This document shows positions 6,535-36,840 of a DNA stretch of 64,000 bases, one piece after another (position 1 is the stretch's first letter; each line of letters opens with the position of its first letter). This stretch comes from an uncultured Bacteroidales bacterium. GTDB taxonomy: Bacteria; Bacteroidota; Bacteroidia; Bacteroidales; ML635J-15. The translations under genes were made by a program, and so were the position numbers. A model generated the notes under the pieces. It did not search any database and was not told the DNA's origin. It saw only the letters and a program-made list of their open reading frames with translations. The stretch lies in NCBI GenBank assembly GCA_905234755.1, contig CAJOIT010000003.1:259135-323134 (forward strand). The letters run 5' to 3'.

Positions 6535-9138
6535 ATGACCAAGAAAGATACAGAAACACCGCTGATGAAGCAGTACTATGAAGTGAAACGCAAGCACCCC
6601 GATGCAATACTTTTGTTTAGGGTGGGCGATTTCTACGAAACCTTTGGCGATGACGCGGTTGTGGCGAGTAAAATTCTTGGCATAACGCTTACTCAGCGTG
6701 CCGGAGCTCCGCTTGCTGGCGTTCCGTACCATGCAATCGACACTTATTTGCCTAGGCTAGTGCGTGCTGGTCAGCGGGTGGCTATTTGCGAACAGCTTGA
6801 AGACCCAAAGACTGCCAAAACCATTGTGAAGCGTGGCATTACCGAATTGGTAACCCCTGGCATAACAATGGACGACAATGTGCTTGAACAGAAGGAAAAC
6901 AATTTCCTTGCAAGCATTTACTTCGACAAAAAGATTTACGGAATATCTTTCCTCGACATTTCTACTGGCGAATTCCTTGTCTCGCAAGGTACTCGTGAAT
7001 ACATCGATAAACTGATCCAAAACTTTAAGCCAAAGGAAGTTATCTTCGAGAAGAACCAGAAAGCGGAAATATTGGAAAACTTCCGCGAGCTTCCTGCAAC
7101 ATACGATCTTCCCGACTGGATGTTTACCGAGGAAAATGCTTTCGAGAAACTTACTAAACAGTTCAATGCCAAGTCGCTCAAAGGCTTTGGTGTAGAGCAA
7201 TTTAAGGTGGGCGTTGTCGCTGCTGGTGCAATAATCGACTATCTTGAATATACCAAGCACGATTGTTGCGAACACATAAAGAACCTTGCTCGTATCGATG
7301 AAGACAAGTATGTGTGGCTCGACAAGTTTACAATCCGCAACCTTGAGCTTTTTGATTCGGGATACGAAAACGGAAAAAGTTTGATTAATGTAATCGACAG
7401 TACCCAGACGGGAATGGGCGGCAGGTTGCTAAAGCGCTGGTTGTCATTGCCTCTGAAAAATGTAGCGGAAATAAACGAGCGCCTGAATGTGGTCGAGTAC
7501 TTGATAAAGAACAATGAGGTTTGCAATGGCATTTCGTCACAGCTGTCAATGGTTGGCGATATTGAGCGTTTGGCATCCAAAGTGGCTGTCATGCGAGTGA
7601 ATCCGCGCGAAATGCTTCAGTTGAAATATTCCCTCGATGCCATAGAACCGATAATCAAGCTTTGCAAGGAGTCGGAACTTCCAGAAATGCAGGTCATAGG
7701 AGAGAAAATCTACGATTGCACAGAATTGCGCGATAAAATTGGCTGTTATCTTAATCCCGAATGCCCCAACATGCTCTCGAAGGGCAATGTGATAAAAAGT
7801 GGTGCAAATGCTGAACTCGATGAATTGCGAAGCATATCAAATGGCGGACGGAACTATCTCAACGACCTTGAGCGGCGCGAAAGCCAAAGAACGGGAATCC
7901 CCTCGTTGAAAGTAAGTTATAACAATGTTTTCGGTTATTATTTCGAGGTGCGCAATACTCACAAGGACAAGGTTCCGCCCGAGTGGACACGCAAGCAGAC
8001 GCTTGTAAGTGCCGAGCGATACATCAACGAGGAACTTAAGGAATACGAGGAAAAGATTCTCGGCGCCGAAGAAAAGATTTCGGCAATCGAATCGCGACTA
8101 TATAACGAACTTATTGCTTTTGCAACAACGCAAATAGGCAAGGTGCAGGTAAATGCTGGTCTTGTAGCCCGTCTCGATTGTCTGCTTTCGTTTGCAAAGG
8201 ATGCCGTGCAGAACAATTATTGTCGTCCGGAGGTTAACGAGGAAAACATAATCGACATTAAGGAAGGTCGTCATCCTGTGATAGAGAAGCAGTTGAAATT
8301 TGGCGAACCATATATTTCAAACAATGTTTTCCTCGATGACAAGACTCAGCAGATAATGATGATTACCGGACCAAACATGTCTGGTAAGTCGGCGTTGCTA
8401 CGCCAGACTGCGCTGATATGCATTATGGCGCAAATAGGTTGTTATGTTCCTGCACAGAAAGCAACGCTTGGAATAGTTGACAAGATTTTCACCCGTGTTG
8501 GTGCATCCGATAACATTTCGATGGGAGAATCTACTTTCATGGTCGAAATGACTGAGGCAGCAAGCATAATGAACAACCTTTCGGACAAGAGCCTAATTCT
8601 GCTCGATGAGCTTGGTCGTGGTACAAGCACCTACGATGGTATTTCAATAGCTTGGGCAATAGCCGAATACATTCATGAACATTCGAAGGCAAAGACTTTG
8701 TTTGCAACTCATTACCATGAGCTTAACGAAATGGAGAAGGATTTTAACCGCATCAAGAATTTCAATGTTTCGGTGCAGGAATCTGGCAATAAGGTGATAT
8801 TCCTTCGTAAACTGCAGCCGGGTGGGAGCGAGCATAGCTTTGGTATTCATGTCGCAAAGATGGCTGGTATGCCCAAGTCGATTGTATATCGAGCCAACAA
8901 GATTTTGGAACAATTAGAAGCGGCTGGAAGCGATGTTAATGGTGTTGCAAATGTCGGAAAACCAGTGGATAACATCGCCCAGAACCGTGATGGTTACCAG
9001 TTGAGTTTCTTCCAGTTGGACGATCCTGTGCTTTCGCAAATAAAGAAGGAACTTATGAATCTTGACATTGATCGCCTAAGTCCGTTGGAGGCGCTCAACA
9101 AGTTAAACGAAATCAAGAAACTCGCTGGTGCTAAATAG
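6535..9138 (+). CDS. mutS: DNA mismatch repair protein MutS
   Basis: 867 residues, full length for MutS1. It recognises mismatches and small loops and recruits MutL by ATP-driven sliding-clamp formation. Domain I has the mismatch-wedge motif GDFYETF (Phe-x-Glu) near residue 31; the connector, lever and clamp domains follow; the ATPase has Walker [15 protein letters not shown] near residue 615 and Walker [16 protein letters not shown]. The helix-turn-helix end and a short tail ([16 protein letters not shown]) that resembles the MutL/tetramer region are present. Transcribed against its neighbours, with its own promoter box. Its domain I is the reference for recognising the MutS-like DGR protein at 34603-35139. 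Confidence 0.98.
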
Positions 9139-24116: not shown

Positions 24117-25166
24117 ATGAGCGACGAAACTATTTTTGATTCCAATCCGATTGGAGCAAGCAAGGAGGACAATAATGATTCTCAAAAATTTGCGGCAAGC
24201 AATGTGTCGGTAGAAAAAGATAAGGAAACTCCGGCCAAGAAGAAAAAAGGCAATGGTTTGAAGTTTGCTGGAATTGCAGGAGCTGCAGGTTTGGCGGGAG
24301 CTGCCGCTGGTGTGTTTATGCCAAAGGATATGTTTGCAAGTGAAGAAAATGCAGATGATGCTGGTACGAACGGTAGCGGCGGTGGAGCTTCTGTGGGCGG
24401 CTATGAAGGTCATGAATTGCCAGTTGCTACAGGTGTTGATGATTCCATGAGTTTTGCAGAGGCTTTTGCTGTGGCACGTGAGGAGGTTGGTCCCGGTGGT
24501 CTTTTTGAATGGCATGGGCAGACATACGGAACATATTATCAGGACGAGTGGCAGAATATGAGTCCAGAAGAACAGGGTGAATATTTGGCATCCGTAAATC
24601 AGACGACATCGGCATTAAACGAGCAAGACCCATCCGAAGTGCCATCTGAAAATATCGCAGAAGTGCCACCAGTAGAGGCAGAGGCAATTGCCGATGAAGA
24701 GCCGTATTCGTATGACCCCGAGCCTATTGGAAGTTCTGCACCTGATCCACTGGATGATAGCATAGTGATAACGGTGAATGAAAGCGATGTATATTCGCAG
24801 GCTGACACAAATGGCGACGGTATGGTTAATGCATCGATAATTGATTTTAACGGAAATGACATTCCGGACATTGTGCTTGATGAAAATGGTGATGGAGTTG
24901 CCGATACACTGATAATTGATCCGTCGTTGAATGAAAATGGTGAATTCATAGGAGACGCCATAAATATTGATGGCATGTCGGTAGAGCCTGATGATTCGGG
25001 CGTTGCATTTGATAATATTGACGATCCTACAATGGAGCCTGACCCTGGTATAATAAATAGTGATGAAATACCGGAAGACATTCCTAATATTGACGATACG
25101 GCAATGGCATCAATTGATCCGGACATCCCAATCGACAATGATATGAATATGAGTGAATATATTTAA
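24117..25166 (+). CDS. Acidic protein with membrane segment and Ca-loop-like repeats
   Basis: 349 residues. N-terminal 45 residues polar with a Lys run (AKKKKGN), then an Ala/Gly-rich hydrophobic segment (LKFAGIAGAAGLAGAAAGVF, about 47-66), a Gly/Ser-rich spacer, a folded-looking part (FEWHGQTYGTYYQDEWQNM, about 124-142) and an acidic C-terminal half with DTNGDGMVN and DENGDGVAD, which match EF-hand/thrombospondin-type-3 calcium loops. No enzymatic motif. First of five closely spaced genes running into FHA, PP2C and two caspases, so probably a structural or substrate part of that system. I do not recognise its family. Confidence 0.7.
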   Translation: MSDETIFDSNPIGASKEDNNDSQKFAASNVSVEKDKETPAKKKKGNGLKFAGIAGAAGLAGAAAGVFMPKDMFASEENADDAGTNGSGGGASVGGYEGHELPVATGVDDSMSFAEAFAVAREEVGPGGLFEWHGQTYGTYYQDEWQNMSPEEQGEYLASVNQTTSALNEQDPSEVPSENIAEVPPVEAEAIADEEPYSYDPEPIGSSAPDPLDDSIVITVNESDVYSQADTNGDGMVNASIIDFNGNDIPDIVLDENGDGVADTLIIDPSLNENGEFIGDAINIDGMSVEPDDSGVAFDNIDDPTMEPDPGIINSDEIPEDIPNIDDTAMASIDPDIPIDNDMNMSEYI

Positions 25167-25178
25167 TATATTGTAGGT

Positions 25179-25748
25179 ATGGCAAAGTCAATTAAATTGG
25201 TGGTGACATGTCCTTATTGTTCTGGGAAGACACCCATATCTATTACAGAAAATATGCTTGGCACAACGATAAAATACATGTGCACTACATGTCGAAAGCA
25301 GTTGCCTGTAAAGATAAGCGAATCGTTGGCATCAAAGTTTAATTCCGACAAGACTGAAATCGGTGGAAAGTCCGCCGATTTCGCCTTGCATCTCGATGTG
25401 GAGCAGAATGAATTAACCCCGCATCAGACATTTGAACTGGTGTCCGACTATTATACGATAGGTCGCAAAAATAATGGCGGTCCAGAACATAGAGCCGATG
25501 TCGAGGTGGTTACCACAGATATGAAAATGAGCCGTAAGCATGCTGCCGTGAAAAAGAAACCAAACGGGGCGTTTACGTTCAAGGATATTGGAAGCAAGAA
25601 TGGTGTTTTTTACAATGGCTCGAAACTTGATGCCGATGAGGAAGTGTACCTTAGTGATGGGGATAAGTTCCAGATAGGACAGACTATGTTCAAGGTTTCA
25701 ATTGTCGACAGGGTGTCAAAAGATGATGATGTAACAGTAACTGCGTAA
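25179..25748 (+). CDS. Zinc-ribbon plus FHA-domain protein
   Basis: 189 residues. A zinc ribbon at the N-terminus (CPYC at about 11-14 and CTTC at about 38-41) is joined to a forkhead-associated domain at about 80-178: YYTIGRKNNGG, MSRKHAAVKKK (the Ser-Arg-x-His that contacts phosphothreonine) and DIGSKNGVFYNG. FHA domains bind phosphothreonine, so this is a likely reader of the two kinases encoded downstream. No membrane segment. It lies 12 bases after the Ca-loop gene and 11 before the phosphatase gene. Confidence 0.92.
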   Translation: MAKSIKLVVTCPYCSGKTPISITENMLGTTIKYMCTTCRKQLPVKISESLASKFNSDKTEIGGKSADFALHLDVEQNELTPHQTFELVSDYYTIGRKNNGGPEHRADVEVVTTDMKMSRKHAAVKKKPNGAFTFKDIGSKNGVFYNGSKLDADEEVYLSDGDKFQIGQTMFKVSIVDRVSKDDDVTVTA

Positions 25749-25759
25749 ATTATTGGAAT

Positions 25760-27295
25760 ATGAAAATACAGAATTTCAGTCAGTTGGGCAAGCGATCCAA
25801 CAATGAGGATAGTTTTGGCGTAAACGATGCGCTTATAACTGTATGCGACGGTATGGGCGGACATGTGTCGGGAGAAAGGGCTAGTTCGTTTGTGGTGAAG
25901 TCTATGCTTGAGGTTTTCTCTTCGCAGCAAAGCATAGGAAAAATGGATATTCAGAAGCAGTTGGACAACGTTCAGTTAAACATGAACGAACTTCTGGAGT
26001 CGGAACCCGAACTTGAGAAGATGGGGACCACTTTTACTGGTATATTTAAGACTCTAGATGTGTGGTATGCTGCACATATTGGCGACAGTAGGATATACCT
26101 GTTCCGCCCGTCGGAAGAGAAGCTGTGGCACACATGGGATCATTCGCTTGTGGGGGAACTTATGCGAACACATGAAATCACCTGCGAAGGAGGACGTTTC
26201 CATCCGATGTCAAATCGGATATCAAAAGCAATTATTGCCAGGAAGGATGGCAAGCCGGTGAGTGCATCAATTGTGAAGATTGATAACTTGAAGGTTGGTG
26301 ACATATTCTTGCTATGTTCCGATGGGGTTGTCGAAGGGTGCAGTGATGTTGATCTGGTTAATATTTTTTCCGATAACGAAAATACATTTGAGCAGAAGTG
26401 TGAAGCTGTAAGAAAATTATGCAGCGAGAACTCAAAGGACAATAATACAGCCGTAATGATTGAAATCGAGTCTCAGGATGAGTTTTCGTACGGAAGCAAT
26501 GACGAGCTTTCGTGGACTTCTTTCGATGAGGTTTTTGCCGACTATGAGAAGTATGTGAATGAGTCGCAGGATGACGGGGACGGTTATTCCATTGAAGTTG
26601 AAGAATCGCCTAAATCGCAGACGAAACCGCAACCCCAAATTAATGATTCTCCTGTTGGTAGTGCCGGTACTCCTAATATGTCGGCACCGGTAGTAAAGAG
26701 GTCTGTTTCCGATTCTCAAAGTGGCTCTTTTCCTGTTGGCACAAGAAAAAAACAGAAAATAATGCGGCTTGCAGTTGGAATTGTTGCCGTTCTTGTTGTG
26801 GCTGTTGTCGTATTCTTTATGATGAAAAAATGCAGTGGCAAGGCTGGCGGAGAAAGCAAAGAGCCGGTGAAAAAAGAACAGTCGGTAGTAGAAAACGCCA
26901 AAAATAATGCTAAACCAGCAACCACCGCAAATAATAAAGAAGAAAGTGTGAAAGGTGATGAAGAGACTGAATGTTTTAATAAATGCACCGACCTCGAAGG
27001 CTGTACTAAGTATATTGAAAATTATCCTAATGGTAAATTTGTAACGCAGGTAAAAGACTTAATAAATAAACTTGATGAGCAAACTTTTAAAGCATGCAAA
27101 TCTATTGGAGATTATGATAGTTATCTGAAAGATTTCCCTGATGGAAAATATAAAGATCAAGCAAAGGTTAAAAAGGGCGAACTGGAAAAGCAACAAAGAG
27201 ACGCAAACGGACAAAATGAAGGTCAAGAACTAGAAGAACCTGCTAAGGGAGATGATGTCAGCAATGAGGGTGATATAAAAGATAAGGATGAATGA
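25760..27295 (+). CDS. Membrane-anchored PP2C-type protein phosphatase
   Basis: 511 residues. Cytoplasmic PP2C domain at about 1-240 with metal ligands in NNEDSFG, VCDGMGGHVSGERAS, AHIGDSRIYLF, LLCSDGVVEG and KDNNTAVMIE; it should remove phosphate from Ser/Thr. After a Pro/Ser-rich linker comes one membrane segment (about 336-357) and an outside part with two repeats of about 35 residues: CFNKCTDLEGCTKYIENYPN and TFKACKSIGDYDSYLKDFPD. A similar repeat occurs just outside the membrane in kinase 1 (FEACTAVADYRAYIRDYG). The stop overlaps the caspase start (ATGA). Likely the opponent of the two kinases. Confidence 0.93.
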   Translation: MKIQNFSQLGKRSNNEDSFGVNDALITVCDGMGGHVSGERASSFVVKSMLEVFSSQQSIGKMDIQKQLDNVQLNMNELLESEPELEKMGTTFTGIFKTLDVWYAAHIGDSRIYLFRPSEEKLWHTWDHSLVGELMRTHEITCEGGRFHPMSNRISKAIIARKDGKPVSASIVKIDNLKVGDIFLLCSDGVVEGCSDVDLVNIFSDNENTFEQKCEAVRKLCSENSKDNNTAVMIEIESQDEFSYGSNDELSWTSFDEVFADYEKYVNESQDDGDGYSIEVEESPKSQTKPQPQINDSPVGSAGTPNMSAPVVKRSVSDSQSGSFPVGTRKKQKIMRLAVGIVAVLVVAVVVFFMMKKCSGKAGGESKEPVKKEQSVVENAKNNAKPATTANNKEESVKGDEETECFNKCTDLEGCTKYIENYPNGKFVTQVKDLINKLDEQTFKACKSIGDYDSYLKDFPDGKYKDQAKVKKGELEKQQRDANGQNEGQELEEPAKGDDVSNEGDIKDKDE

Positions 27296-28083
27296 AAAAA
27301 TATAGTTTCTTTATAATTTTACTGCTTGTTGTTGTCTGTCCTAATTTTGCAAGGGCCTATAACAACACTTATGCAGTAATTGTGGCTGTGGCCGACTACA
27401 AGTATTTCTCGCGTAGCGATGGAGATCTTGTCTATACGATAGCCGATGCGGTTGCGTTTAGCAATTTTCTTAAGTCGAGTAGGGGTGGCGGTGTTCCGTC
27501 GTCCAACATATTGCTGCTAACCGACGCCAATGCCTACAAGCAGAATATTATTGCGAAGGCTAAGGCTTTGTTTGCAAAAGCGCGAAAGGACGACCGCGTT
27601 ATATTCTTCTTTTCCGGTCATGGAAGCAAGGGCTATTTTCTACCGTATGATGCAACTTCGTATGGTGGAAATATGCTTTACTTCAGCGAAATAAAGGAGA
27701 TTTTCAGATGCGCGAAATGTGAAACAAAGCTCCTATTCGGCGATGCCTGCTTTTCGGGCAGCATGAAGAAGAACCTAAGTGCTCAGATGCAGCAAAGCAT
27801 ATCGGCAGGGGCGAAGACAGCCTCGTCGATGAACATTGCCGTTATGATGTCATGCTCCGAAAACGAATATTCAATAGAGTCTAGTTCTCTGGGGCATGGG
27901 CTTTTCACCTATTATCTCATGCAAGGTCTTGGCGGCAAGGCTAATCGCGACGGGAACAAGTATATAACAATACAGGAATTGTTCTACTATGTGCACAAAA
28001 ATGTGCGGGCAGGCTCAGGCAACAGCCAGACACCGGTGTTGTTCGGTAAATTCGATTTAAGATTGATTGTCGGTAAAGTGTAA
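27292..28083 (+). CDS. Secreted caspase-like protease (peptidase C14), first copy
   Basis: 263 residues. Signal peptide of about 23 residues (MKKYSFFIILLLVVVCPNFA). The p20-like domain begins YAVIVAVADY; the catalytic dyad is intact: His110 in FFFSGHGSKG and Cys153 in FGDACFSGSM. The later AVMMSCSENEYSIESS and GHGLFTYYLMQGLGG blocks match caspase/metacaspase relatives. Metacaspase-type enzymes cut after Arg or Lys, but the specificity here is not read from sequence. Translationally coupled to the phosphatase. Export is the notable feature: it should act outside the cytoplasm. Confidence 0.93.
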   Translation: MKKYSFFIILLLVVVCPNFARAYNNTYAVIVAVADYKYFSRSDGDLVYTIADAVAFSNFLKSSRGGGVPSSNILLLTDANAYKQNIIAKAKALFAKARKDDRVIFFFSGHGSKGYFLPYDATSYGGNMLYFSEIKEIFRCAKCETKLLFGDACFSGSMKKNLSAQMQQSISAGAKTASSMNIAVMMSCSENEYSIESSSLGHGLFTYYLMQGLGGKANRDGNKYITIQELFYYVHKNVRAGSGNSQTPVLFGKFDLRLIVGKV

Positions 28084-28095
28084 TTGGAAAACATA

Positions 28096-29031
28096 ATGTA
28101 CAAGGGATTTCTATTATTGACATTTGCGTTTGTGGTGACTGCTGGAGCCGCCAATGCTTACGAAAATACATACGCGGTCATAGTCGCTATTGACGACTAC
28201 GAAAACGACGATGTAATCAACGATGTTCCATTTCTCATTAACGGAGCCAGTGCATTTTACGACTTTTTAACTTCAAGGAGGGGTGGCACGGTGCCTTCGG
28301 GGAACATTTGCAAGCTTATCGACAAGGAGGCTACAAGGCAGAACATTATCGATAGGGCCACTGCCCTGTTTGCTAGGGCAAGCAGGAACGACCGCGTGAT
28401 TTTCTATTTCTGCGGACATGGTGGCGATGGCGGTTTTGCTCCATACGATTTTGACGGTTATGACTGGTCGGTATTGTCATACGGCGACATCAAGGCGATA
28501 TTTCGCAGCGCAAGCTGCGGCACGAAGCTGCTTTTTGCCGACGCTTGCAATTCGGGAGGCTTGAAAGGAAGCTCTAATGCGCATATAAGTCAGTCCATTG
28601 TCGGGGATTCTTCTACTGACGACATGAATATAGCAGTGATGACATCGTGCAGGGCCGGCGAGAATTCGATTGTGACATCGGCTCTTGAAATGGGCATCTT
28701 CTCGTATTGTCTGATCCAGGGACTTGGAGGCATGGCGAACAGCGACGGCAACGCATACATTACTATTCAGGAACTTTTCTATTATGTGTACAGGCAGGTG
28801 TTGGACAAGTCGAAAATGAAGCAGACTCCTCAGCTGTTTGGCAAGTTCGACTTAAGATTGATTGTGGCAAAAGTATATAGCAACAATGCAAGGAAAAGCA
28901 ATAAACGAATTTATACTAACGATCATACGGCAATGAAACATAACAAACAGAAACTCAGAAACGGCGAAGCCCTCAACGAAGTTAAACTTAGAAACCTGGA
29001 AACACAGAAACGAGAAACTTATAAACATTAG
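28096..29031 (+). CDS. Secreted caspase-like protease (peptidase C14), second copy
   Basis: 311 residues from ATG 28096 (a TTG 12 bases earlier is less likely). Signal peptide MYKGFLLLTFAFVVTAGAANA. Catalytic His108 in FYFCGHGGDG and Cys151 in FADACNSGG are intact, and LFGKFDLRLIVAKV aligns with the last residues of the first copy. After that point about 50 extra residues, rich in Lys, Arg and Asn, are coded by the GAAAC repeat DNA that follows, so the original stop has been lost. A tandem duplicate of the upstream gene with clear divergence. Confidence 0.92.
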   Translation: MYKGFLLLTFAFVVTAGAANAYENTYAVIVAIDDYENDDVINDVPFLINGASAFYDFLTSRRGGTVPSGNICKLIDKEATRQNIIDRATALFARASRNDRVIFYFCGHGGDGGFAPYDFDGYDWSVLSYGDIKAIFRSASCGTKLLFADACNSGGLKGSSNAHISQSIVGDSSTDDMNIAVMTSCRAGENSIVTSALEMGIFSYCLIQGLGGMANSDGNAYITIQELFYYVYRQVLDKSKMKQTPQLFGKFDLRLIVAKVYSNNARKSNKRIYTNDHTAMKHNKQKLRNGEALNEVKLRNLETQKRETYKH

Positions 29032-29082: not shown

Positions 29083-30945
29083 ATGCAAGGAAAAACAATT
29101 AACGGATTTGAACTGAAGCGACAGCTTGGCGTAGGCGGCATGGCCGAGGTGTGGTATGCCGAGAATAAGATCGGAAAGAAGGCGGCGGTGAAGATGCTGC
29201 TTCCTAAGTTGTGTGAAGATGCCAACGTTGTCGGGAGATTTTTGACTGAGGCGAAGGTTACGGTTGGTCTTTCTCATCCTAACATCCGTCAGGTTTACGA
29301 CTATGGCGAAATTGACGGGCGACCGGCGATAGTGCAGGAATATCTCGACGGCGACGACCTGAAGGCTCTTATGAAGTCGGGAAGAAAATTTACTGGCGCC
29401 GAACTCGAAAAGTGGTGGAACCAGCTCGTCGACGCACTCTGCTATACGCACGGCAAAGGTGTTGTTCACCGCGACATTAAGCCTGCTAATATATTTGTCG
29501 ATACCGACGGCAACATAAAGCTGCTCGACTTCGGAATAGCAAAGCTGCGCGACAGCATAAGCATTACGCTGACAGGACAGAAGATTGGTACGCTCATGTA
29601 CATGAGTCCCGAACAGGTGAGGGACAGCAAGCGTATCGACTATCGTACCGACCTGTACTCGCTGGCGGTTACATTTGTCCATCTGCTTACAGGGCGAAAG
29701 CCGTACGACAGTGATACGAGCAGCGACTTCGAGATTAGCGAAAATATTGTTTACAAGCCGATTGACATGACTGGTGTGCCTGACAAGTGGCGCAACTTCC
29801 TTTTGCCTTATCTTGCGAAGAATCCAGAAGACAGGCCTGCGCTCAAGCATTTCGGCGAAAATGTGGCAGCAGGGGGGCGTTCCGCGGCTTCTCCAAATGT
29901 ACAGGCAAACTTGGCATCTTCCGACGGCGACGAAACCTGTGCCGATACACCAGCAGCACCGACAAAGCCAAAACCTGTGAGCCAAGCCCCCAAACCTCAG
30001 CGGCCTGAACCTGATAGGCGGAAGAACCGCAATGGGTTATGGATAGGACTGGGATTGGGAGTTGTTGCTGTTATATTGGCTATTGTCTTATGGCCAAAAT
30101 CACAAACCAGCATTGAACAGCCGGACGATGTCGTGAAAAGCGACGATGACATTGCTTTCGAAGCTTGCACAGCTGTTGCCGATTATCGCGCCTACATAAG
30201 GGACTACGGACACAACGCCGCACATTACAGCGAGGCAAACGACTATGTAGAAAAACATATTGCCGACAGTACAAAGGACGTGGAGCAGAAGAAAGCCGAC
30301 GATGAGGCGGCAAGAAAAGCGGCGGCCGAGGCTCAGAAGAAAGCAGGAAAGGGCACTTTGAACGGACACGACTGGATTGACTTGGGGCTTTCGGTAAGGT
30401 GGGCTACCTGCAATGTAGGCGCAACCAGTCCCGAAAGCTACGGCAACTACTACGCATGGGGCGAAACGAAGACCAAGTCGGCATATAGTTGGAACACCTA
30501 TAAATATTGCAACGGAGGCTATAGTACACTAACAAAATACTGCAATAGTTCGGAGTATGGCAATGGTGGATTTTCCGATAACCTTACAAAACTGCAACGG
30601 GCGGATGATGCTGCCGCCAACTGGGGTAGTGGCTGGCGTATGCCGACAAAAGCCGAATTCGAGGAACTGATAGTCAAGTGTAGTTGGAATTGGACAGGCA
30701 AAGGCTACAAGGTTACCGGACCCAACGGCAACTCTATTTTCCTGCCCGCTGCTGGCGGCCGCTACGACAGTAGTCTCTACTATGCCGGTTCCTACGGCTT
30801 CTACTGGTCGAGTTCGCTCTACACGGACTACCCGAGCATCGCGTGGTACCTCTCCTTCAATTCGGGCTATTACAGCATGCACAGCATCTACTACCGCTAC
30901 TATGGGTTTACTGTGCGCCCTGTTTGCGTGTCCGCCCAGAACTAA
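29083..30945 (+). CDS. Receptor-type Ser/Thr protein kinase with C-terminal FISUMP domain, DGR target 1
   Basis: 620 residues. Kinase domain about 7-270: glycine loop LGVGGMAEV, Lys37, HRDIKPAN (His129), DFG (Asp149) and MSPEQ are intact. A Pro/Lys-rich linker leads to one membrane segment (about 318-338), then a short repeat shared with the PP2C protein (about 361-395), an Ala/Lys/Glu-rich coiled stretch, and a FISUMP/C-type-lectin-like domain (about 425-620; DLGLSVRWATCNVG, SGWRMPTKAEFEEL, NSIFLPAAG). Variable region VR1 is residues 552-619, just before the stop. Topology predicts kinase inside and variable domain outside the inner membrane. Start is the ATG after the GAAAC repeat; the same context precedes kinase 2. 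Confidence 0.95.
   Translation: MQGKTINGFELKRQLGVGGMAEVWYAENKIGKKAAVKMLLPKLCEDANVVGRFLTEAKVTVGLSHPNIRQVYDYGEIDGRPAIVQEYLDGDDLKALMKSGRKFTGAELEKWWNQLVDALCYTHGKGVVHRDIKPANIFVDTDGNIKLLDFGIAKLRDSISITLTGQKIGTLMYMSPEQVRDSKRIDYRTDLYSLAVTFVHLLTGRKPYDSDTSSDFEISENIVYKPIDMTGVPDKWRNFLLPYLAKNPEDRPALKHFGENVAAGGRSAASPNVQANLASSDGDETCADTPAAPTKPKPVSQAPKPQRPEPDRRKNRNGLWIGLGLGVVAVILAIVLWPKSQTSIEQPDDVVKSDDDIAFEACTAVADYRAYIRDYGHNAAHYSEANDYVEKHIADSTKDVEQKKADDEAARKAAAEAQKKAGKGTLNGHDWIDLGLSVRWATCNVGATSPESYGNYYAWGETKTKSAYSWNTYKYCNGGYSTLTKYCNSSEYGNGGFSDNLTKLQRADDAAANWGSGWRMPTKAEFEELIVKCSWNWTGKGYKVTGPNGNSIFLPAAGGRYDSSLYYAGSYGFYWSSSLYTDYPSIAWYLSFNSGYYSMHSIYYRYYGFTVRPVCVSAQN
30735..30939 (+). repeat. DGR variable region VR1
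   Basis: Aligned by eye to the template 35446-35646 over 67 codons: 25 base differences, every one at a template adenine, mostly in AAC/AAT codons that become TAC, TAT, AGC, ATC, TTC, TCC, CAC or GGC. It has one extra codon after ATG-CAC-AGC-ATC, in the (AAC)4 run of the template. The 3' end (ACTGTGCGCCCTGTTTGCGT and the following TCCGCCCAG) is identical to the template and is the likely initiation-of-mutagenic-homing site; the next base then differs (AAC in VR, CAC in TR). Confidence 0.96.
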
Positions 30946-30987
30946 ACCATTGTCAGGCAGGAGAAGCAAGAAAGGCAAGAATGGCAA

Positions 30988-31062
30988 AATCGGCGGCGGA
31001 GCAGATGGCAGCCCGTGGCGCACACGGAGTGTGCCACCCAGCCGTCTGCTCCGCCGCTGATT
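30988..31062. repeat. Long inverted repeat downstream of VR1
   Basis: 21-base arms 30988-31008 and 31042-31062 with two mismatches (core GCGGCGGAGCAGA / TCTGCTCCGCCGC), starting 48 bases after VR1. Inside is a second stem GCACAC-gga-GTGTGC. A small CCGCT-gatt-AGCGG hairpin overlaps the right arm. Comparable to the hairpin/cruciform needed downstream of the variable region in the Bordetella phage DGR. Confidence 0.85.
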
Positions 31063-31153
31063 AGCGGTTTGGATTTTGGAAGAAAACGGAATATTAGTCG
31101 CCTGTGGCGGCAGGATTTTGAAAAAGTTGATTGATGTAAAATGATCGATTGTT

Positions 31154-31870
31154 ATGGATATAGAAATTAAAATAGGAAGAGATGTGGAAGGCGGTTCCGT
31201 ACTTCGTGTTCAGGAGGAGTACAAGCGTGTGAGCCGCTTCCATGCCACGCTGAAGTGGCACGACAGGCAGTTGACGATAGTCGATAACGATTCGGCAAAC
31301 GGAACTTTTGTCAACGGTCGCCGTGTGGCGAGTGCAAAGGTGGGTGAAAACGATAGGGTTTTTCTTGGTGGCACCAATCCTGGCAACTACCAGCTCGACT
31401 TGCACAAGATGGTGGAGCAGTGTACGCAGTATGAACTAAAGAGCAAGACCGACTTCACTGAGGAGTTCAAGGATTTGAAGCGTGCATACATTCGCTATCA
31501 GGAGGAAGTCGCGGAACTTAAGGCAAACGTAGCCAAAAAGTCGCAGACACCCAAGTTGATAATTACTATAATACCGTCAGTGGTAACAATATTGCTTGCT
31601 GTATTCTTGCCATTTAGGCCGGAAACTATGGCGTTGAGAATGGTTGTGGGTAGTTTGGGACCGGTGTTGTCAACTATCATTGGTTTTACGACACTTGGCA
31701 AAAATAGCAACGACATTACCGAAGAGTTAACCGACCTCCAGATAAAATACCAGCAAAAGTATAAGTGCCCCAAGTGCGGCAAGGAGTACAATATAGCAGC
31801 CATGCACTGGAAAAAGCTTGAGGCAGGTGGCGAATGTCCGTACAAGTGCGGAGCAAAATTCGTAAAGTAG
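31154..31870 (+). CDS. FHA-domain membrane protein with C-terminal zinc ribbon
   Basis: 238 residues. FHA domain at about 3-85 (SRFHATLKWHDRQL, DNDSANGTFVNG), a helical linker (about 95-130), two close membrane segments (about 133-155 and 161-180), then a C-terminal zinc ribbon CPKCGKEYN...CPYKCGAKF (about 208-236). It carries the same two modules as the FHA protein at 25179-25748 in opposite order and adds a membrane anchor. As a phosphothreonine reader at the membrane it is a likely partner of kinase 1, encoded 200 bases upstream. The gap between them holds the VR1 inverted repeat and a small CGCC-tgt-GGCG hairpin (about 31100). Confidence 0.9.
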   Translation: MDIEIKIGRDVEGGSVLRVQEEYKRVSRFHATLKWHDRQLTIVDNDSANGTFVNGRRVASAKVGENDRVFLGGTNPGNYQLDLHKMVEQCTQYELKSKTDFTEEFKDLKRAYIRYQEEVAELKANVAKKSQTPKLIITIIPSVVTILLAVFLPFRPETMALRMVVGSLGPVLSTIIGFTTLGKNSNDITEELTDLQIKYQQKYKCPKCGKEYNIAAMHWKKLEAGGECPYKCGAKFVK

Positions 31871-31891
31871 AAATGTATAATGATACTAAAA

Positions 31892-32500
31892 ATGAAGAAA
31901 GCGGCGATATGTTTGTTTTTATGCATTGCGGTAGCTGGTAGTGCATTGTCGCAGGTTCCTCAGAAGCCTTCGCGCGGTCAGATTGCAGCCGACCTTGTTG
32001 GTAAAAAACTCGCCGAGGGAGTAGAGGACGGCTGGTTCGATTCGGAATGGCGTTACGAGATAAAGCGTGGCAGCATAAAGGGAATGAATATCGAGAAGAC
32101 TCTGAAAAATACTAATACGGACTATTGCGTCGTAGTGCTGCTAAAGTTACAGAGTGAGATAAATACATTCATGGCAAGGGTGAAGATTAATTACCATCTT
32201 GTACAAGGCAAGTGGAGGTTGGAGTTTGTAAATTCCGTGGGAATGAAGATAGTCAGGACCCATAAGTACGACGACTGCATACAGTTTGCCATAGTTGATG
32301 ACGGCTGGGGAGGTGTTGACGCCCTGCAGCTGACCAACAAGGTTGAGATTGAACTTGCCGTTGCCGGGTATTTCTATGCTTTCGGGCAGTGGAAAAAGTT
32401 TGCCGTAAAAGTAGGTCCTCATGGACAAAAGCAGGTTGGTGGCACTTTCGGCGGAGGCAGCGTAGAATCGTACAAGGTCGAATTTATCGAAAGGCTGTGA
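31892..32500 (+). CDS. Secreted protein of unknown function in the DGR locus
   Basis: 202 residues from ATG 31892 (ATG 31880 in the same frame is also possible). Signal peptide MKKAAICLFLCIAVAGSALS. The mature part has alternating beta-like strands (YCVVVLLKLQSEINTFMARV, then FAIVDDGWGGVDAL and VEIELAVAGYFYAF) and no known motif. It follows the membrane FHA gene by 21 bases, so it is likely made with it. Being exported, it could be a ligand, adaptor or caspase substrate of the system; this is inference from position only. Confidence 0.7.
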   Translation: MKKAAICLFLCIAVAGSALSQVPQKPSRGQIAADLVGKKLAEGVEDGWFDSEWRYEIKRGSIKGMNIEKTLKNTNTDYCVVVLLKLQSEINTFMARVKINYHLVQGKWRLEFVNSVGMKIVRTHKYDDCIQFAIVDDGWGGVDALQLTNKVEIELAVAGYFYAFGQWKKFAVKVGPHGQKQVGGTFGGGSVESYKVEFIERL

Positions 32501-32578
32501 ATAATGGACAATTAACAATGGACAATTAACAATGGACAATTAACAATGGACAATTAACAATGGACAATTGATAATGGA
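32501..32578 (+). repeat. Tandem 16-base AATGGACAATTAAC repeats
   Basis: About five head-to-tail copies of AATGGACAATTAAC-type units directly after the stop of the secreted gene. Single or double copies of the same motif occur at 35146-35184, about 47096-47122 and near 15104. Confidence 0.8.
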
Positions 32579-32609
32579 TAATCATATTAAACTTTGAACC
32601 TTAAACTTT

Positions 32610-32735
32610 GAACAACATAGAAACGCCACAGGCACTGAAACACAGAAACAATTAGAAACTTAGAAACGGGCTTTAGCCCATAAAAACACAGAAACGTGAA
32701 ACATATAAACGGGCTTTAGCCCATATAAACAAAGA
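32610..32735 (+). repeat. GAAAC/palindrome repeats before kinase 2
   Basis: Units AGAAAC plus GCCACAGGC or GGGCTTTAGCCC; the GGGCTTTAGCCCAT core appears twice (about 32668 and 32710). It ends in AAAGAAAAGTAT just before the kinase 2 ATG, as at kinase 1. Confidence 0.7.
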
Positions 32736-32742
32736 AAAGTAT

Positions 32743-34425
32743 ATGCAAGGAAAACAAATTAACGGATTTATTCTAAAACGCCCCTTGGGCGTAGGTGGCA
32801 TGGCCGAGGTGTGGTATGCCGAGAATGAAATACACAAGCCAGCTGCAATAAAGCTGCTGAACTTTGAGCTTACGAAGAACGAGCAGATAGTTGAGCGCTT
32901 CCGCAACGAGGCCGAGGTTATGGTTCGCCTTGACCACAGAAACATCCGTCAGGTTTACGGCTACGGGATGCTCGAATGTCAGCCCGCCATCATAATGGAG
33001 TATCTTGAAGGCGACGACCTGAAGGCCATGCTCAAGTCGGGTCACAAGTTTATCGATGCCGAACTGGTGAAATGGTGGAACCAGATGGTTTCTGCACTTG
33101 GCTACACCCACTCTCAGGGTGTTGTACATCGCGACATAAAGCCATCCAACATTTTCATCGACCGCAACGGAGATGTGAAACTGATGGATTTTGGCATTGC
33201 CAAGATAGGAGATGCAGGTAGCGGCACTCAGACAGGCTCCACGCTTGGTACACGGCTTTACATGAGTCCCGAGCAGGTTAAGGATCCAAAGCGTGTCGGC
33301 ATCAAATCGGACAACTATTCGTTGGCGGTATCGTTCGTACATCTGCTCACAGGCAAGGCTCCCTACGACACCACCACCAGCAGCGATTTCGACATACAGC
33401 TGCAGATAGTTTCCAAGCCGTTGGATTTGTCCGGTGTTCCTGAGAAGTGGTGCAACTTCCTGCTTCCATATCTCGACAAGGATCCCGACAAGCGTGCCGA
33501 ACTGAAGCCGTTTGGCGATGATGCAGGTGCTAATGCTTCGTCTAACCATCGACAGGAGGCTGCACCAAAACAATCGGAATCCATATACAGTGGTGGTGAC
33601 GAGACTGTAGTGGAAGGTGCTGGTAATGTGTCGTCCGCTCCTAAGCCAGCCGCAGCTCCCTCGCAAAAAACAAAAACACAAGTACAACCTCCAGCAAAGA
33701 AAAAGAGCCGTGTCGGATTGTGGGTGACTCTTGGCGTTATGGGATTTTTGATTGTGTCGGGAGTGGCTGTTGCTGTTGTTATGTCAACATTCGATGGGTA
33801 TATAAATAAAAATGATTATACCAATTTAATTAATGACTATAGCGAATCAGGAAGACTAAACGGTCATGCATACGTCGATTTGGGGCTTTCTGTAAATTGG
33901 GCTACCTGCAATGTAGGTGCTTACTATCCAGAAGACTACGGCGACTATTATGCTTGGGGCGAAACCTCCACCAAGAGTTCTTATACCGAGGGAAACTATA
34001 AATATTCGTCAAATCCGACTACTCTTCCCTCGAATGTTGATGTTGCTACCGAACTTTGGGGTGGAGAAATGCGTACAGGAACTGATTATGCTTATTACGA
34101 TTCGTGGCGCATGCCGACAAAAGAAGAGCTTGAAGAATTACAAAATAGGTGCAGTTGGACATGGACGACAAAGAGCGGAACAAATGGCTACAAGGTTACC
34201 GGACCCAACGGCAACTCCATTTTCCTGCCCGCTGCTGGCTACCGCTACGGCAGTAGTCTCAGCTTTGCCGGTTCCTACGGCTACTACTGGTCAATTTCGC
34301 TCCGCACGGACTACCCGTTCAGCGCGTGGTACCTCTACTTCAATTCGGACGATTACTGCATGTACAGCAACAACCGCTGCTATGGGTTTACTGTGCGCCC
34401 TGTTTGCGTGTCCGCCCAGAACTAA
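32743..34425 (+). CDS. Receptor-type Ser/Thr protein kinase with C-terminal FISUMP domain, DGR target 2
   Basis: 560 residues, a paralogue of kinase 1. Lys37, His129-Arg-Asp (HRDIKPSN) and Asp149 (DFG) occupy the same residue numbers as in kinase 1, and LGVGGMAEVWYAEN is identical. Membrane segment about 324-347. It lacks the PP2C-like repeat and coiled stretch, so the FISUMP domain (about 365-560; GRLNGHAYVDLGLSVNWATC, DSWRMPTKEELEEL) follows the membrane closely. VR2 is residues 493-559. The two kinases differ more in linkers and FISUMP N-terminal parts than in the kinase core, fitting a duplication whose outer parts adapted separately. Followed by an inverted repeat and a terminator. Confidence 0.95.
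   Translation: MQGKQINGFILKRPLGVGGMAEVWYAENEIHKPAAIKLLNFELTKNEQIVERFRNEAEVMVRLDHRNIRQVYGYGMLECQPAIIMEYLEGDDLKAMLKSGHKFIDAELVKWWNQMVSALGYTHSQGVVHRDIKPSNIFIDRNGDVKLMDFGIAKIGDAGSGTQTGSTLGTRLYMSPEQVKDPKRVGIKSDNYSLAVSFVHLLTGKAPYDTTTSSDFDIQLQIVSKPLDLSGVPEKWCNFLLPYLDKDPDKRAELKPFGDDAGANASSNHRQEAAPKQSESIYSGGDETVVEGAGNVSSAPKPAAAPSQKTKTQVQPPAKKKSRVGLWVTLGVMGFLIVSGVAVAVVMSTFDGYINKNDYTNLINDYSESGRLNGHAYVDLGLSVNWATCNVGAYYPEDYGDYYAWGETSTKSSYTEGNYKYSSNPTTLPSNVDVATELWGGEMRTGTDYAYYDSWRMPTKEELEELQNRCSWTWTTKSGTNGYKVTGPNGNSIFLPAAGYRYGSSLSFAGSYGYYWSISLRTDYPFSAWYLYFNSDDYCMYSNNRCYGFTVRPVCVSAQN
34219..34419 (+). repeat. DGR variable region VR2
   Basis: Same length as the template (201 bases). 25 base differences by eye: 24 at template adenines, one elsewhere (AGT to ATT, codon 26). 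Changes mostly turn AAC/AAT into TAC, AGC, TTC, TTT, CGC, TGC or GAT. The last 30 bases equal the template, then AAC replaces CAC as in VR1. Confidence 0.96.
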
Positions 34426-34453: not shown

Positions 34454-34546
34454 GCAGAAGTGGCGGCAAGGCGTGCAGTCGGGCGTGGTGCGCACCCCAG
34501 TGCGCTACCCAACCACGCACGGCAAGCGAGTTGCCACCACTTCTGC
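34454..34546. repeat. Long inverted repeat downstream of VR2
   Basis: 16-base arms 34454-34469 and 34531-34546 with one mismatch (GCAGAAGTGGCGGCAA / TTGCCACCACTTCTGC), starting 34 bases after VR2. Inner stems GCGTGGT/ACCACGC (34483-34489, 34512-34518) and GCGCAC-ccca-GTGCGC (34490-34505). The sequence is unrelated to the VR1 stem although the bases between VR and stem are alike. Confidence 0.85.
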
Positions 34547-34602: not shown

Positions 34603-35139
34603 ATGCCGAAATTAACAGAAATATTGCAAAAGGAGAGGGAACGTGCGACAATTGAGCAATGCGCTGTGATTCACTTGTTTCAGGAAGGCACTTTCTATCG
34701 TGCATACGAGTGGAGTGCGTGGTTGTGCCACCGATATGTTAAGGAATTCAAGCCCACGCACCGCCTGTTGAAAGATAGCGACGACAGCATTGTGTTTGTC
34801 GGTTTTCCGCTCACAAGCCTTGAGAGATATACGCCCGAAGGCGCGAGTGTGGCTGTCGCTGGCGAAAAGAGCGTTGATATGGCGCTTCCTGGCGGTGTGT
34901 TCGCACCCGATGCCGATGCAGAATCGCTTGGCGAGGAGTTTGATGCGTGGAAGCAGGGCGTTCCAATGACCGAGGCGTCGAAGAAACGCATTGCCGAGGA
35001 GCAGGGCAAGGTCGAGCGTCAGCCTCGCCTCACCGATGTTATGCACCGCATACTGGCATATCCAATCGAGCAGCGTTCTCCGATGGATTGTATGGCGTTC
35101 CTCGCCGAGATAAAACAGCAGATTTCGGAAATAATATGA
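34603..35139 (+). CDS. MutS domain-I-like protein, probable DGR accessory
   Basis: 178 residues. Residues about 20-75 resemble the mismatch-binding domain I of MutS: IHLFQEGTFYRAYEWSAWL against [19 protein letters not shown] of the mutS product in this window, and FVGFPLTSLERYTPEG against [16 protein letters not shown]. The wedge Phe and Tyr are kept but the Glu is replaced (FYRAY). No lever, clamp or ATPase domain follows; the C-terminal part is helical (PRLTDVMHRILAYPIEQRSP). It lies between target 2 and the TR/RT. As I recall, MutS-like accessory genes exist in a minority of DGRs. No avd-like helical-bundle gene is seen, so it may take that place. A direct role in tolerating or reading mismatched cDNA is inference. 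Confidence 0.75.
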   Translation: MPKLTEILQKERERATIEQCAVIHLFQEGTFYRAYEWSAWLCHRYVKEFKPTHRLLKDSDDSIVFVGFPLTSLERYTPEGASVAVAGEKSVDMALPGGVFAPDADAESLGEEFDAWKQGVPMTEASKKRIAEEQGKVERQPRLTDVMHRILAYPIEQRSPMDCMAFLAEIKQQISEII

Positions 35140-35145
35140 GATAAA

Positions 35146-35310
35146 GGACAATTGACAATGGATAATTAACAATGGACAATTGATAAAAACGCCCCTTCGA
35201 CAAGCTCACTTCGACAAGCTCAGCACGTCGCAGGGGGCGGAAAACCCAGAAACGGGCGTAGCCCTAGAAACTTAGAAACAATTAGAAACAGCGTCAGCCA
35301 TATAAACAAT
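35146..35310 (+). repeat. Mixed dispersed repeats before the template repeat
   Basis: AATGGACAATT-type units (35146-35184), two CTTCGACAAGCTCA units (about 35196-35225), then GAAAC units with GGGCGTAGCCC and CAGCGTCAGCC cores (about 35240-35306). All three families occur elsewhere in this window. Confidence 0.7.
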
Positions 35311-35325
35311 TTAAACTCTTTGACA

Positions 35326-36840
35326 ATGGTAAGTTCACAGGCGGTCGGCCCTTGCAAAAGGGATAGCGAAGAAGAGACGGTTGGCTTGCATGAAGGCATT
35401 CCTTCCGTCCCGAAAATAACAGTACCGCCGACGCAAACAAGTTGTATTTTCCTGCCCGCTGCTGGCAACCGCAACGACAGTAGTCTCAACAATGCCGGTT
35501 CCAACGGCAACTACTGGTCAAGTTCGCTCAACACGGACAACCCGAACAACGCGTGGAACCTCAACTTCAATTCGGACAATTACAACATGAACAACAACAA
35601 CCGCAACTATGGGTTAACTGTGCGCCCTGTTTGCGTGTCCGCCCAGCACTTGCCAGAGTCTGCCTATTGTCTTACAAGGGAACAACTTCTTGCCGACCTT
35701 TATGATGCCTACTACGATGCTCGCCGTCATAAGCGTAACAAGCCCTACCAGAAACGTTTCGAAGCAAACCTTGAGCGCAATCTCAACGAACTCTGCGATG
35801 AACTTTTTTCTCGCAAATACATGCCGCGCCCATCGACCTGCTTCATAATCACCGACCCCAAGAAGCGCGAAGTTTTTGCCGCCGATTTCCGCGACCGCAT
35901 TGTTCACCACCTGTACTACAACTATATGCACGAAATGTTTGAGCGCACTTTCATTCACGACACCTACAGTTGCATAAAGGGGCGCGGCACTCATTACGGC
36001 ATTGGGCGGCTCGAAAGCCATATCCGCAAGGAAAGCCAAGGCTTTACCGTTCCATGCTATGTGATGAAGATGGACATTCGCGGTTATTTTATGCACATTG
36101 ACCGCCGCCGTCTGCTTGGTATTTGCAACGAAAGCATTGACAGGATGGCGTGGCACCGCGTGTCGAAGCACAGGCGCGAAAGGTGGTGCGAAGTGGTTGA
36201 CATTGATTTTGTCAAGTACCTTACAGCCGAGATTGTTATGCTCAATCCTCTGGAAGACTGTCGTGTCAAGGGCGACCCGTCCGATTGGGACGACCTTCCG
36301 CACGACAAGAGTCTGTTCCATACGCCCCAAGGTTGCGGACTGCCGATTGGCAACCTTACCTCGCAACTTTTCAGCAATGTGTATCTCAATGTGCTCGACC
36401 AGTTTATGAAGCGCGAACTGAAATGCCGCCATTATGGTCGCTATGTGGATGACTTTTATGTCGTCGGTGCCGACCGCAACTGGCTGTTGTCGATTGTGCC
36501 TAAGGTCAGGCGTATGCTGTCGCAGCGGCTTGGGCTGGATTTCCACGATGGCAAACTGGAGATTGTGTCGGTTTGGCATGGTGTGGAGTTTGTCGGTGCG
36601 TATGTGAAGCCTTTTCGCAGGTATGCAAGCCGTTCGTGCGTTGGGCGTATGCGGCAGAAATTGAAATTGTTAGCCCAAAGTGTTTGCGAAAAGTGGGTGA
36701 ACTCCTTGAACTCGTTCTGCGGAGTGCTTTCGCACGGCAGCAATTATAGGTTGCGAATGAGGCTTTTTCTTGATGAAAATCCAGCATTTTTCCGTTACGG
36801 ATATTTTGATGCAGGAATACATAAGTTTTTACGATTTTGA
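35326..36840 (+). CDS. DGR reverse transcriptase, frame continuous with the template repeat
   Basis: The open frame has ATG 35326 (TTG 35320 just before) and runs without stop through the template repeat into the reverse transcriptase. The RT proper starts near LTREQLLADLYDAYYDARRH (35670) and spans about 390 residues. Diagnostic features: LPIGNLTSQLFSN (the IGxxxSQ form of RT block 4 that marks DGR enzymes), GRYVDDFYVVG with catalytic Asp pair (Tyr at residue 373), KMDIRGYFMHID (block A aspartate) and a basic end. It copies TR RNA into adenine-mutagenised cDNA that replaces the VRs. Whether the first 110 residues, 67 of them TR-coded and Asn-rich, are translated is open; TTG 35650 is an alternative start. 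Confidence 0.95.
   Translation: MVSSQAVGPCKRDSEEETVGLHEGIPSVPKITVPPTQTSCIFLPAAGNRNDSSLNNAGSNGNYWSSSLNTDNPNNAWNLNFNSDNYNMNNNNRNYGLTVRPVCVSAQHLPESAYCLTREQLLADLYDAYYDARRHKRNKPYQKRFEANLERNLNELCDELFSRKYMPRPSTCFIITDPKKREVFAADFRDRIVHHLYYNYMHEMFERTFIHDTYSCIKGRGTHYGIGRLESHIRKESQGFTVPCYVMKMDIRGYFMHIDRRRLLGICNESIDRMAWHRVSKHRRERWCEVVDIDFVKYLTAEIVMLNPLEDCRVKGDPSDWDDLPHDKSLFHTPQGCGLPIGNLTSQLFSNVYLNVLDQFMKRELKCRHYGRYVDDFYVVGADRNWLLSIVPKVRRMLSQRLGLDFHDGKLEIVSVWHGVEFVGAYVKPFRRYASRSCVGRMRQKLKLLAQSVCEKWVNSLNSFCGVLSHGSNYRLRMRLFLDENPAFFRYGYFDAGIHKFLRF
35446..35646 (+). repeat. DGR template repeat TR
   Basis: 201 bases with about 22 AAC/AAT codons in the target frame, giving an Asn-rich translation where the VRs have Tyr, Ser, Asp, Phe and others. 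AAY codons avoid stops under adenine mutagenesis. The (AAC)4 run at 35590-35601 is where VR1 has one more codon. The 5' limit of homology to both VRs is ATTTTCCTG at 35446; the 3' limit is CAG at 35646, followed by CAC instead of AAC, with no inverted repeat behind it, as expected for a donor copy. Confidence 0.96.

Follow-up and report, generated by a model that had tools for sequence, protein, structure and literature searches.

In an uncultured Bacteroidales bacterium, a chromosomal diversity-generating retroelement (DGR) appears to diversify two single-pass serine/threonine (Ser/Thr) kinases, Kin1 and Kin2, in their C-terminal C-type-lectin domains. The element and its targets lie within a 64,000-nucleotide chromosomal stretch of contig CAJOIT010000003.1, which we call the window; close relatives of this bacterium are rumen inhabitants. 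The claim is supported by comparing the template repeat (TR) of the element with the variable regions (VRs) at the ends of the two kinase genes. On balance, we favor the view that the DGR was recruited to a Ser/Thr phospho-signalling operon, which it would feed with diversified receptor kinases. The retroelement, including its reverse transcriptase (RT), and its targets are laid out as follows:

29083..30945, plus strand: Kin1, 620 amino acids; Hanks Ser/Thr kinase (residues 9-256), DET motif (283), membrane segment (318-336), helical stalk, Lcl_C domain (about 421-620)
30736..30942, plus strand: VR1, 69 codons at the 3' end of the Kin1 gene; template A is substituted at 26 sites
30984..31066, plus strand: large hairpin downstream of VR1, a possible homing cruciform (DNA fold -36.2 kcal/mol, z -6.95)
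32743..34425, plus strand: Kin2, 560 amino acids; Hanks Ser/Thr kinase (residues 11-253), DET motif (286), membrane segment (328-346), Lcl_C domain (about 368-560)
34219..34422, plus strand: VR2, 68 codons at the 3' end of the Kin2 gene; template A accounts for 24 of its 25 mismatches
34455..34545, plus strand: large hairpin downstream of VR2 (DNA fold -32.9 kcal/mol, z -5.68)
34603..35139, plus strand: DGR accessory gene, 178 amino acids, weakly similar to MutS domain I (Pfam MutS_I 17.3 bits, below the 20.6 cut-off)
35326..36840, plus strand: open reading frame of the RT, with the RT proper from about 35650 (Pfam RVT_1 1.5e-10; IGNLTSQ and YVDD in the translation)
35446..35650, plus strand: template repeat TR1, 68 codons, 37 with A, 20 AAY, none mutable at A to a stop codon

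VR2 differs from the TR at 25 of 201 bases, and all but one of these differences are on a template A (binomial P about 1e-12). VR1 has its 26 changes at template A and 9 differences at other bases, all of which are in the flanks and none inside VR1. We rejected a chance repeat as the source of the likeness (for either VR, the binomial P is at most about 1e-12). The 3' end of the VR is invariant: the identical stretch GTGCGCCCTG..CAG is common to TR and VR. An earlier note on this DNA had described the VRs as the last 67-68 residues of the kinases; they are indeed C-terminal, but their lengths are 69 (VR1) and 68 (VR2) codons. The theoretical protein repertoire computed from the TR is about 10^32.

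The RT is the only one that we found in the 3.31 Mb assembly. DGR-type RTs have the motif [ILV]GxxxSQ, with which IGNLTSQ agrees. We compared the element with that of genome G009, a congener of the window species from water buffalo rumen. The 120 bases before the TR contain 1 difference and the TR region contains 6 in 207, so that the TR and the upstream TR RNA combined differ at 7 of 327 positions, versus 127 of 1188 in the RT body. Because the TR is far less diverged than the RT body, we conclude that the template RNA is more strongly constrained than the enzyme. The RT frame is open across the TR in the window, in G009, and in G375 (a Bacteroidales assembly from roe deer rumen), so the TR could be translated within the RT protein.

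Strong, composite hairpins are found behind all four kinase VRs, two in the window and two in G375 (z -7.19 and -6.25), and there is none after the TR (DNA fold, z +1.6). Homing of the BPP-1 element needs a hairpin behind the VR, and the BPP-1 hairpin is nearer to the VR than those described here (PMC3240598). In every close RT relative, a homologue of the accessory gene (L033-L040) stands between the target and the TR.

Both targets proved to be Ser/Thr kinases with all catalytic residues, as the earlier note had claimed: the open reading frames are where it had put them, the Pkinase matches are strong (Pfam E-values of 3e-45 for Kin1 and 4e-47 for Kin2), and AxK (at 35), HRDIKPxN (at 129), and DFG (at 149) are intact in both. 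The single membrane segment in each kinase was also borne out by hydropathy. In both proteins, the Hanks kinase is fused to a C-terminal C-type-lectin fold that ends in the VR. The lectin-like fold of the tips had been predicted correctly, but their name, FISUMP (Fib_succ_major), was a near miss that we do not retain: Pfam instead returns Lcl_C (PF07603, formerly DUF1566), at 34.8 bits for Kin1 and 31.4 bits for Kin2, slightly below the cut-off of 34.9. True Fib_succ_major domains occupy the corresponding position in related kinases of another genome, G057 (Pfam).

Structure prediction, which the earlier note had proposed as a check, agrees with this architecture. The model of full-length Kin1 (predicted local distance difference test, or pLDDT, of 78.8) shows a kinase, a disordered linker, a membrane helix, a long helical stalk, and a lectin domain. 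The Kin1 Lcl_C domain was modelled with a pLDDT of 96.7 (56 aligned sequences). When this model was compared to known structures with VIA-align, the C-terminal domain of Legionella Lcl came out on top (Z 8.3), and Mtd U1 (the classic DGR target) was close behind (Z 7.4, tied within 1), alongside C-type lectins. Foldseek by itself gave no significant match for the lectin domain, and the lectin sequence profile gave no match to the PDB; we assign the lectin fold because of the VIA-align ranking and the homology to Lcl_C. The kinase domain is nearest to PknB, PknA, and StkP, and its best match is PknB bound to its FHA substrate GarA.

The hydrophobic segment of both Kin1 and Kin2 is flanked by a net charge of +4 towards the kinase and by a negative one on its far side. 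Also, among 67 homologous open reading frames with Lcl_C, at least 41 have lipoprotein- or signal-peptide-like starts (a lower bound, from a rough sequence pattern), which suggests that the domain is normally exported. Because of the charge bias at the helix and the exported relatives of the domain, the tips of Kin1 and Kin2 are most likely in the periplasm and the kinases in the cytoplasm. The layout that the earlier note had proposed, hypervariable outside and kinase inside, is therefore well supported as a prediction for the window pair. It is not universal, as one of the kinases of G375, kinB, appears to be soluble.

Between 24117 and 36840, every gene is on the plus strand, in the order 349-amino-acid protein, FHA1, PP2C, two caspase-like peptidases, Kin1, FHA2, 206-amino-acid protein, Kin2, accessory gene, TR, and RT. 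The members not listed above are:

24117..25166, plus strand: opening gene of the operon, for a 349-amino-acid membrane protein; a single membrane segment close to the N-terminus and an N-terminal motif SDETIFD
25179..25748, plus strand: FHA1, a zinc-ribbon-like start and an FHA (phosphothreonine-reading) domain (Pfam FHA 7.6e-16)
25760..27295, plus strand: PP2C-type phosphatase with one membrane segment (337-355) (Pfam PP2C_2 1.8e-11; hydropathy)
27292..28083, plus strand: caspase-like peptidase 1 (Casp1), signal-peptide-like N-terminus, His (SGHG) and Cys (DACFSG) (Pfam Peptidase_C14 6.5e-20)
28084..29031, plus strand: caspase-like peptidase 2 (Casp2), signal-peptide-like N-terminus, His (CGHG) and Cys (DACNSG) (Pfam Peptidase_C14 6.5e-15)
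31154..31870, plus strand: FHA2, an FHA domain, two membrane segments, and a zinc-ribbon-like C-terminal part (Pfam FHA 1.1e-13; hydropathy)
31880..32500, plus strand: 206-amino-acid protein with a signal-peptide-like start, no family in the Pfam scan

The catalytic His and Cys are intact in both caspase-like peptidases. A transmembrane Ser/Thr kinase, a PP2C phosphatase, and FHA proteins are encoded together here, which is the combination that marks a threonine phosphorylation pathway (PpkA/PppA/Fha). The operon itself, to which this search was confined, contains no type VI secretion genes, and the Pfam scan found no MoxR ATPase, vWA/VMAP, or STAND NTPase among its proteins. Nearly all kinases of this operon type have a (D/E)-E-T motif (DET or EET) directly after the kinase domain. 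The motif is also found at the N-terminus of the 349-amino-acid protein, while its background in other window proteins is 0.33 per 1000 amino acids. It may be a phosphosite that is read by the FHA proteins. Homologues of the 349-amino-acid protein occur in the same operon in G375, G229, and G510, and also in the cluster of G057. (PADLOC matches the locus to PD-T4-6, but these are broad Ser/Thr kinase models, and we did not adopt the assignment to defence.)

G375 contains the same PP2C/FHA/caspase operon and an RT that is 72% identical to that of the window. It has its own TR, and on each side of the RT there is a DGR-targeted kinase, so that two VRs have been mutated independently; all of the mismatches are at template A (20/20 in kinA and 22/22 in kinB). 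The DGR, its targets, their architecture, and the operon can all be read from the sequence, as can their conservation in this second species. The membrane helix is present in Kin1, Kin2, and G375 kinA, while one of the four kinase targets, G375 kinB, is without it. Similar receptors also exist without the element: G229, a congener of G375, has kinase-transmembrane-Lcl_C genes in the same operon type and no RT, and G057 has kinase-transmembrane-Fib_succ_major proteins and no RT. In another kinase of this operon type in G229 (L105:1982-4342), an OmpA-like outer end replaces Lcl_C, a case of sensor swapping. In genome G413, a protein with a TIR domain, a membrane segment, and Lcl_C (L108:6456-8123) has no DGR; there, the Lcl_C sensor module is attached to another immune-type signalling domain.

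The earlier note also expected kinases and VRs to be linked in relatives. G375, with its two kinase VRs, agrees with this, but most RT relatives, including the closest, target other proteins. The closest RT is that of G009 (91% identity), whose target is a Flg_new-Lcl_C surface lipoprotein, and other RT relatives target Big_2 or unclassified proteins. Kinase targets were found in only 2 of about 30 related DGR loci, some of which have no detected TR/VR pair or are cut by a contig end; this rules out kinase linkage as a general rule among RT relatives. In the RT tree, the two kinase-targeting elements (window and G375) are on separate supported branches. The DGR was thus probably recruited to kinases on two occasions, although a single gain followed by losses is possible. 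Furthermore, the window and G009 share a block of 85% identity from the middle of the Kin2 Lcl_C through the RT, which points to recombination within Lcl_C as a way for the element to move into a gene. As kinase-transmembrane-lectin proteins with and without a DGR occur in one order, and the same DGR type is found on lipoproteins, the gain of a retroelement by receptors is traceable here.

The genome of the window species has a second TR/VR pair, with no RT nearby, on another contig, C5 (L112, about 7640-7985 and 8125-9120, minus strand). Its target is a Flg_new-Lcl_C lipoprotein whose end differs from the second TR almost only at A (31 A-substitutions), and the single RT of the genome probably acts on it in trans.

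We propose that the single RT, together with the MutS_I-like accessory protein, would copy the TR RNA into cDNA and misread it at A, and that the cDNA would home to the 3' ends of Kin1 and Kin2, guided by the shared 3' end and by the hairpin that follows each VR. The kinases of different cell lines would then have Lcl_C tips with some 20 residues that differ and a kinase part that stays constant. The periplasmic tips would be joined by one membrane helix (and, in Kin1, the helical stalk) to a cytoplasmic PknB-like kinase. Binding of a ligand, or clustering of the tips, might turn on the kinase, which would then place phosphates on (D/E)-E-T sites of its own and of a membrane partner, to be read by FHA1 and FHA2 and reset by the membrane PP2C. 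The two exported caspase-like peptidases could be part of the output, in a damaging or remodelling response to the surfaces of phage, competitors, or neighbours, and the biological role might be to sense threats. If the tips are external and active, then this bacterium makes receptor diversity beforehand and feeds it into a phosphorylation relay; pre-made receptor diversity that is wired to kinases is a layout otherwise known from eukaryotic receptor kinases. The locus also makes the ligands of DGR-diversified signalling sensors testable. A more ambitious version, which we offer tentatively and regard as doubtful, is an anticipatory receptor system: DGR repertoires of membrane kinases (facing outside) and soluble kinases (facing inside) would share a PP2C/FHA relay that drives exported caspases, with at least two independent recruitments to one Bacteroidales operon type.

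Several observations weigh against a recruited, diversified receptor system. We infer mutagenesis of the VRs from TR/VR differences in single assemblies, and VR1 is one codon longer than the TR. The MutS_I match of the accessory protein is below threshold, and the Pfam scan, in which no dedicated Avd model was run, identified no Avd. The sole tie between the caspases and the kinases is gene order. In G375, kinB (L109:10686-12248) shares an operon with the membrane kinase kinA but lacks any membrane segment, and its linker is short; we predict a cytoplasmic variable domain for it, and the outside-in receptor is thus no rule common to all of these kinases. Among the related DGRs, most serve proteins of other kinds, some of them adhesin-like, and the Lcl_C tip may therefore do no more than bind a glycan or a surface. 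Indeed, the DGR might have arrived with the Lcl_C-coding 3' end of a surface lipoprotein, as the G009 block that begins in the middle of the Kin2 Lcl_C looks imported by recombination, and both the closest RT and the RT-less pair in the window genome serve Flg_new-Lcl_C lipoproteins. Diversification of the kinases would then be a side effect of their having this domain in common with the lipoproteins, which we consider unlikely; nor do we expect that the tips mainly adhere or bind glycan while the kinases merely report attachment. In G375, on the other RT branch, the element likewise has two kinases of this operon as its targets, and every mismatch there is at a template A; the window, for its part, retains two separately mutated kinase VRs with hairpins. 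Such repeated recruitment suggests selection on the kinases.

The soluble kinB also raises the idea that the diversified domain works in the cytoplasm, where it would decide which substrate the kinase modifies or which intracellular (for example, phage) protein is detected. Most cyanobacterial DGR targets are predicted to be cytosolic, and such a model has been proposed for their kinases (PMC7517822). Yet in Kin1, Kin2, and G375 kinA there is a clear single helix between the kinase and Lcl_C, and the relatives of the domain are exported, which makes this idea improbable. We would be quite surprised if the element were decaying, with an inactive DGR and VRs that are frozen alleles. The codon in VR1 that is missing from the TR would fit with decay, as would the kinase-transmembrane-Lcl_C operon of G229 without an RT, but the RT frame is intact with YVDD, there are almost no non-A changes inside the VRs, the TR is strongly constrained, and the hairpins are intact.

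The earlier note had suggested that diversified kinases would be a distinct class of DGR target, which is not borne out in full: DGR-targeted kinases are already known from cyanobacteria and from Thiohalocapsa. In cyanobacteria, DGR targets include Ser/Thr kinases with a C-terminal C-type-lectin (CLec) domain, mostly predicted to be cytosolic; the kinase is the commonest partner domain, and orthocaspase domains occur too (Vallota-Eastman et al. 2020, PMC7517822). These proteins resemble Kin1 and Kin2 in having a Hanks-type kinase and a C-terminal C-type-lectin domain that ends in the VR. In contrast, the window kinases are single-pass membrane proteins with an Lcl_C lectin, the host is a member of the Bacteroidales, and the caspases stand alone as exported proteins. 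Putative antigen sensors diversified by DGRs are described from Thiohalocapsa and other multicellular bacteria, and a figure legend gives Pkinase among the target domains (Dore et al. 2024, PMC10907252). There too, it is the sensor end of signalling proteins with several domains on which the DGR acts, and a single genome has cytoplasmic as well as periplasmic sensors, but those systems center on a MoxR/vWA/VMAP ternary system and STAND NTPases rather than on PP2C, FHA, and caspases.

According to published surveys (in PMC6642488), no Pfam domain is more common among DGR targets than DUF1566/Lcl_C. Those targets share the domain family and the C-type lectin fold (Legionella Lcl structure 8q4e), but they are mostly lipoproteins, pilin-like proteins, and other surface proteins, with no fusion to a transmembrane kinase. 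PknB/GarA and the PpkA/PppA/Fha proteins of type VI secretion likewise combine a membrane Ser/Thr kinase that has an extracytoplasmic sensor, a PP2C phosphatase, and an FHA reader; unlike in the window, their sensors are not hypervariable, and the window operon is without type VI secretion genes. We found no literature that links DGRs to FISUMP or to Bacteroidales kinases, in a search that lay outside the DGR surveys of NAR 2018 and Nat Microbiol 2017. Within that search, we did not find described a Bacteroidales host, the single-pass receptor layout, or a kinase/phosphatase/FHA/caspase operon with exported caspases, nor the recurrence in a second species and the mix of membrane and soluble diversified kinases.

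Three other Lcl_C genes of the window genome (L113:5275-6888, L114:6602-7507, and L115:4599-6419) have 3' ends that are ~74-78% like TR1, with A-biased differences, and hairpins lie behind L114 and L115. They are possible older remote targets; that they are current targets of TR1 is unproven, with about 30 changes at A versus 13-26 others. Finally, 14-bp tandem repeats (ACAATGGACAATTA; window 32501-32588 and 35141-35186) and a GAAACTTAGAAACGGGCTTTAGCCC repeat (29031, 32655, 32698, and 35241) sit in the gaps around both kinases and the DGR, and may have aided duplication.

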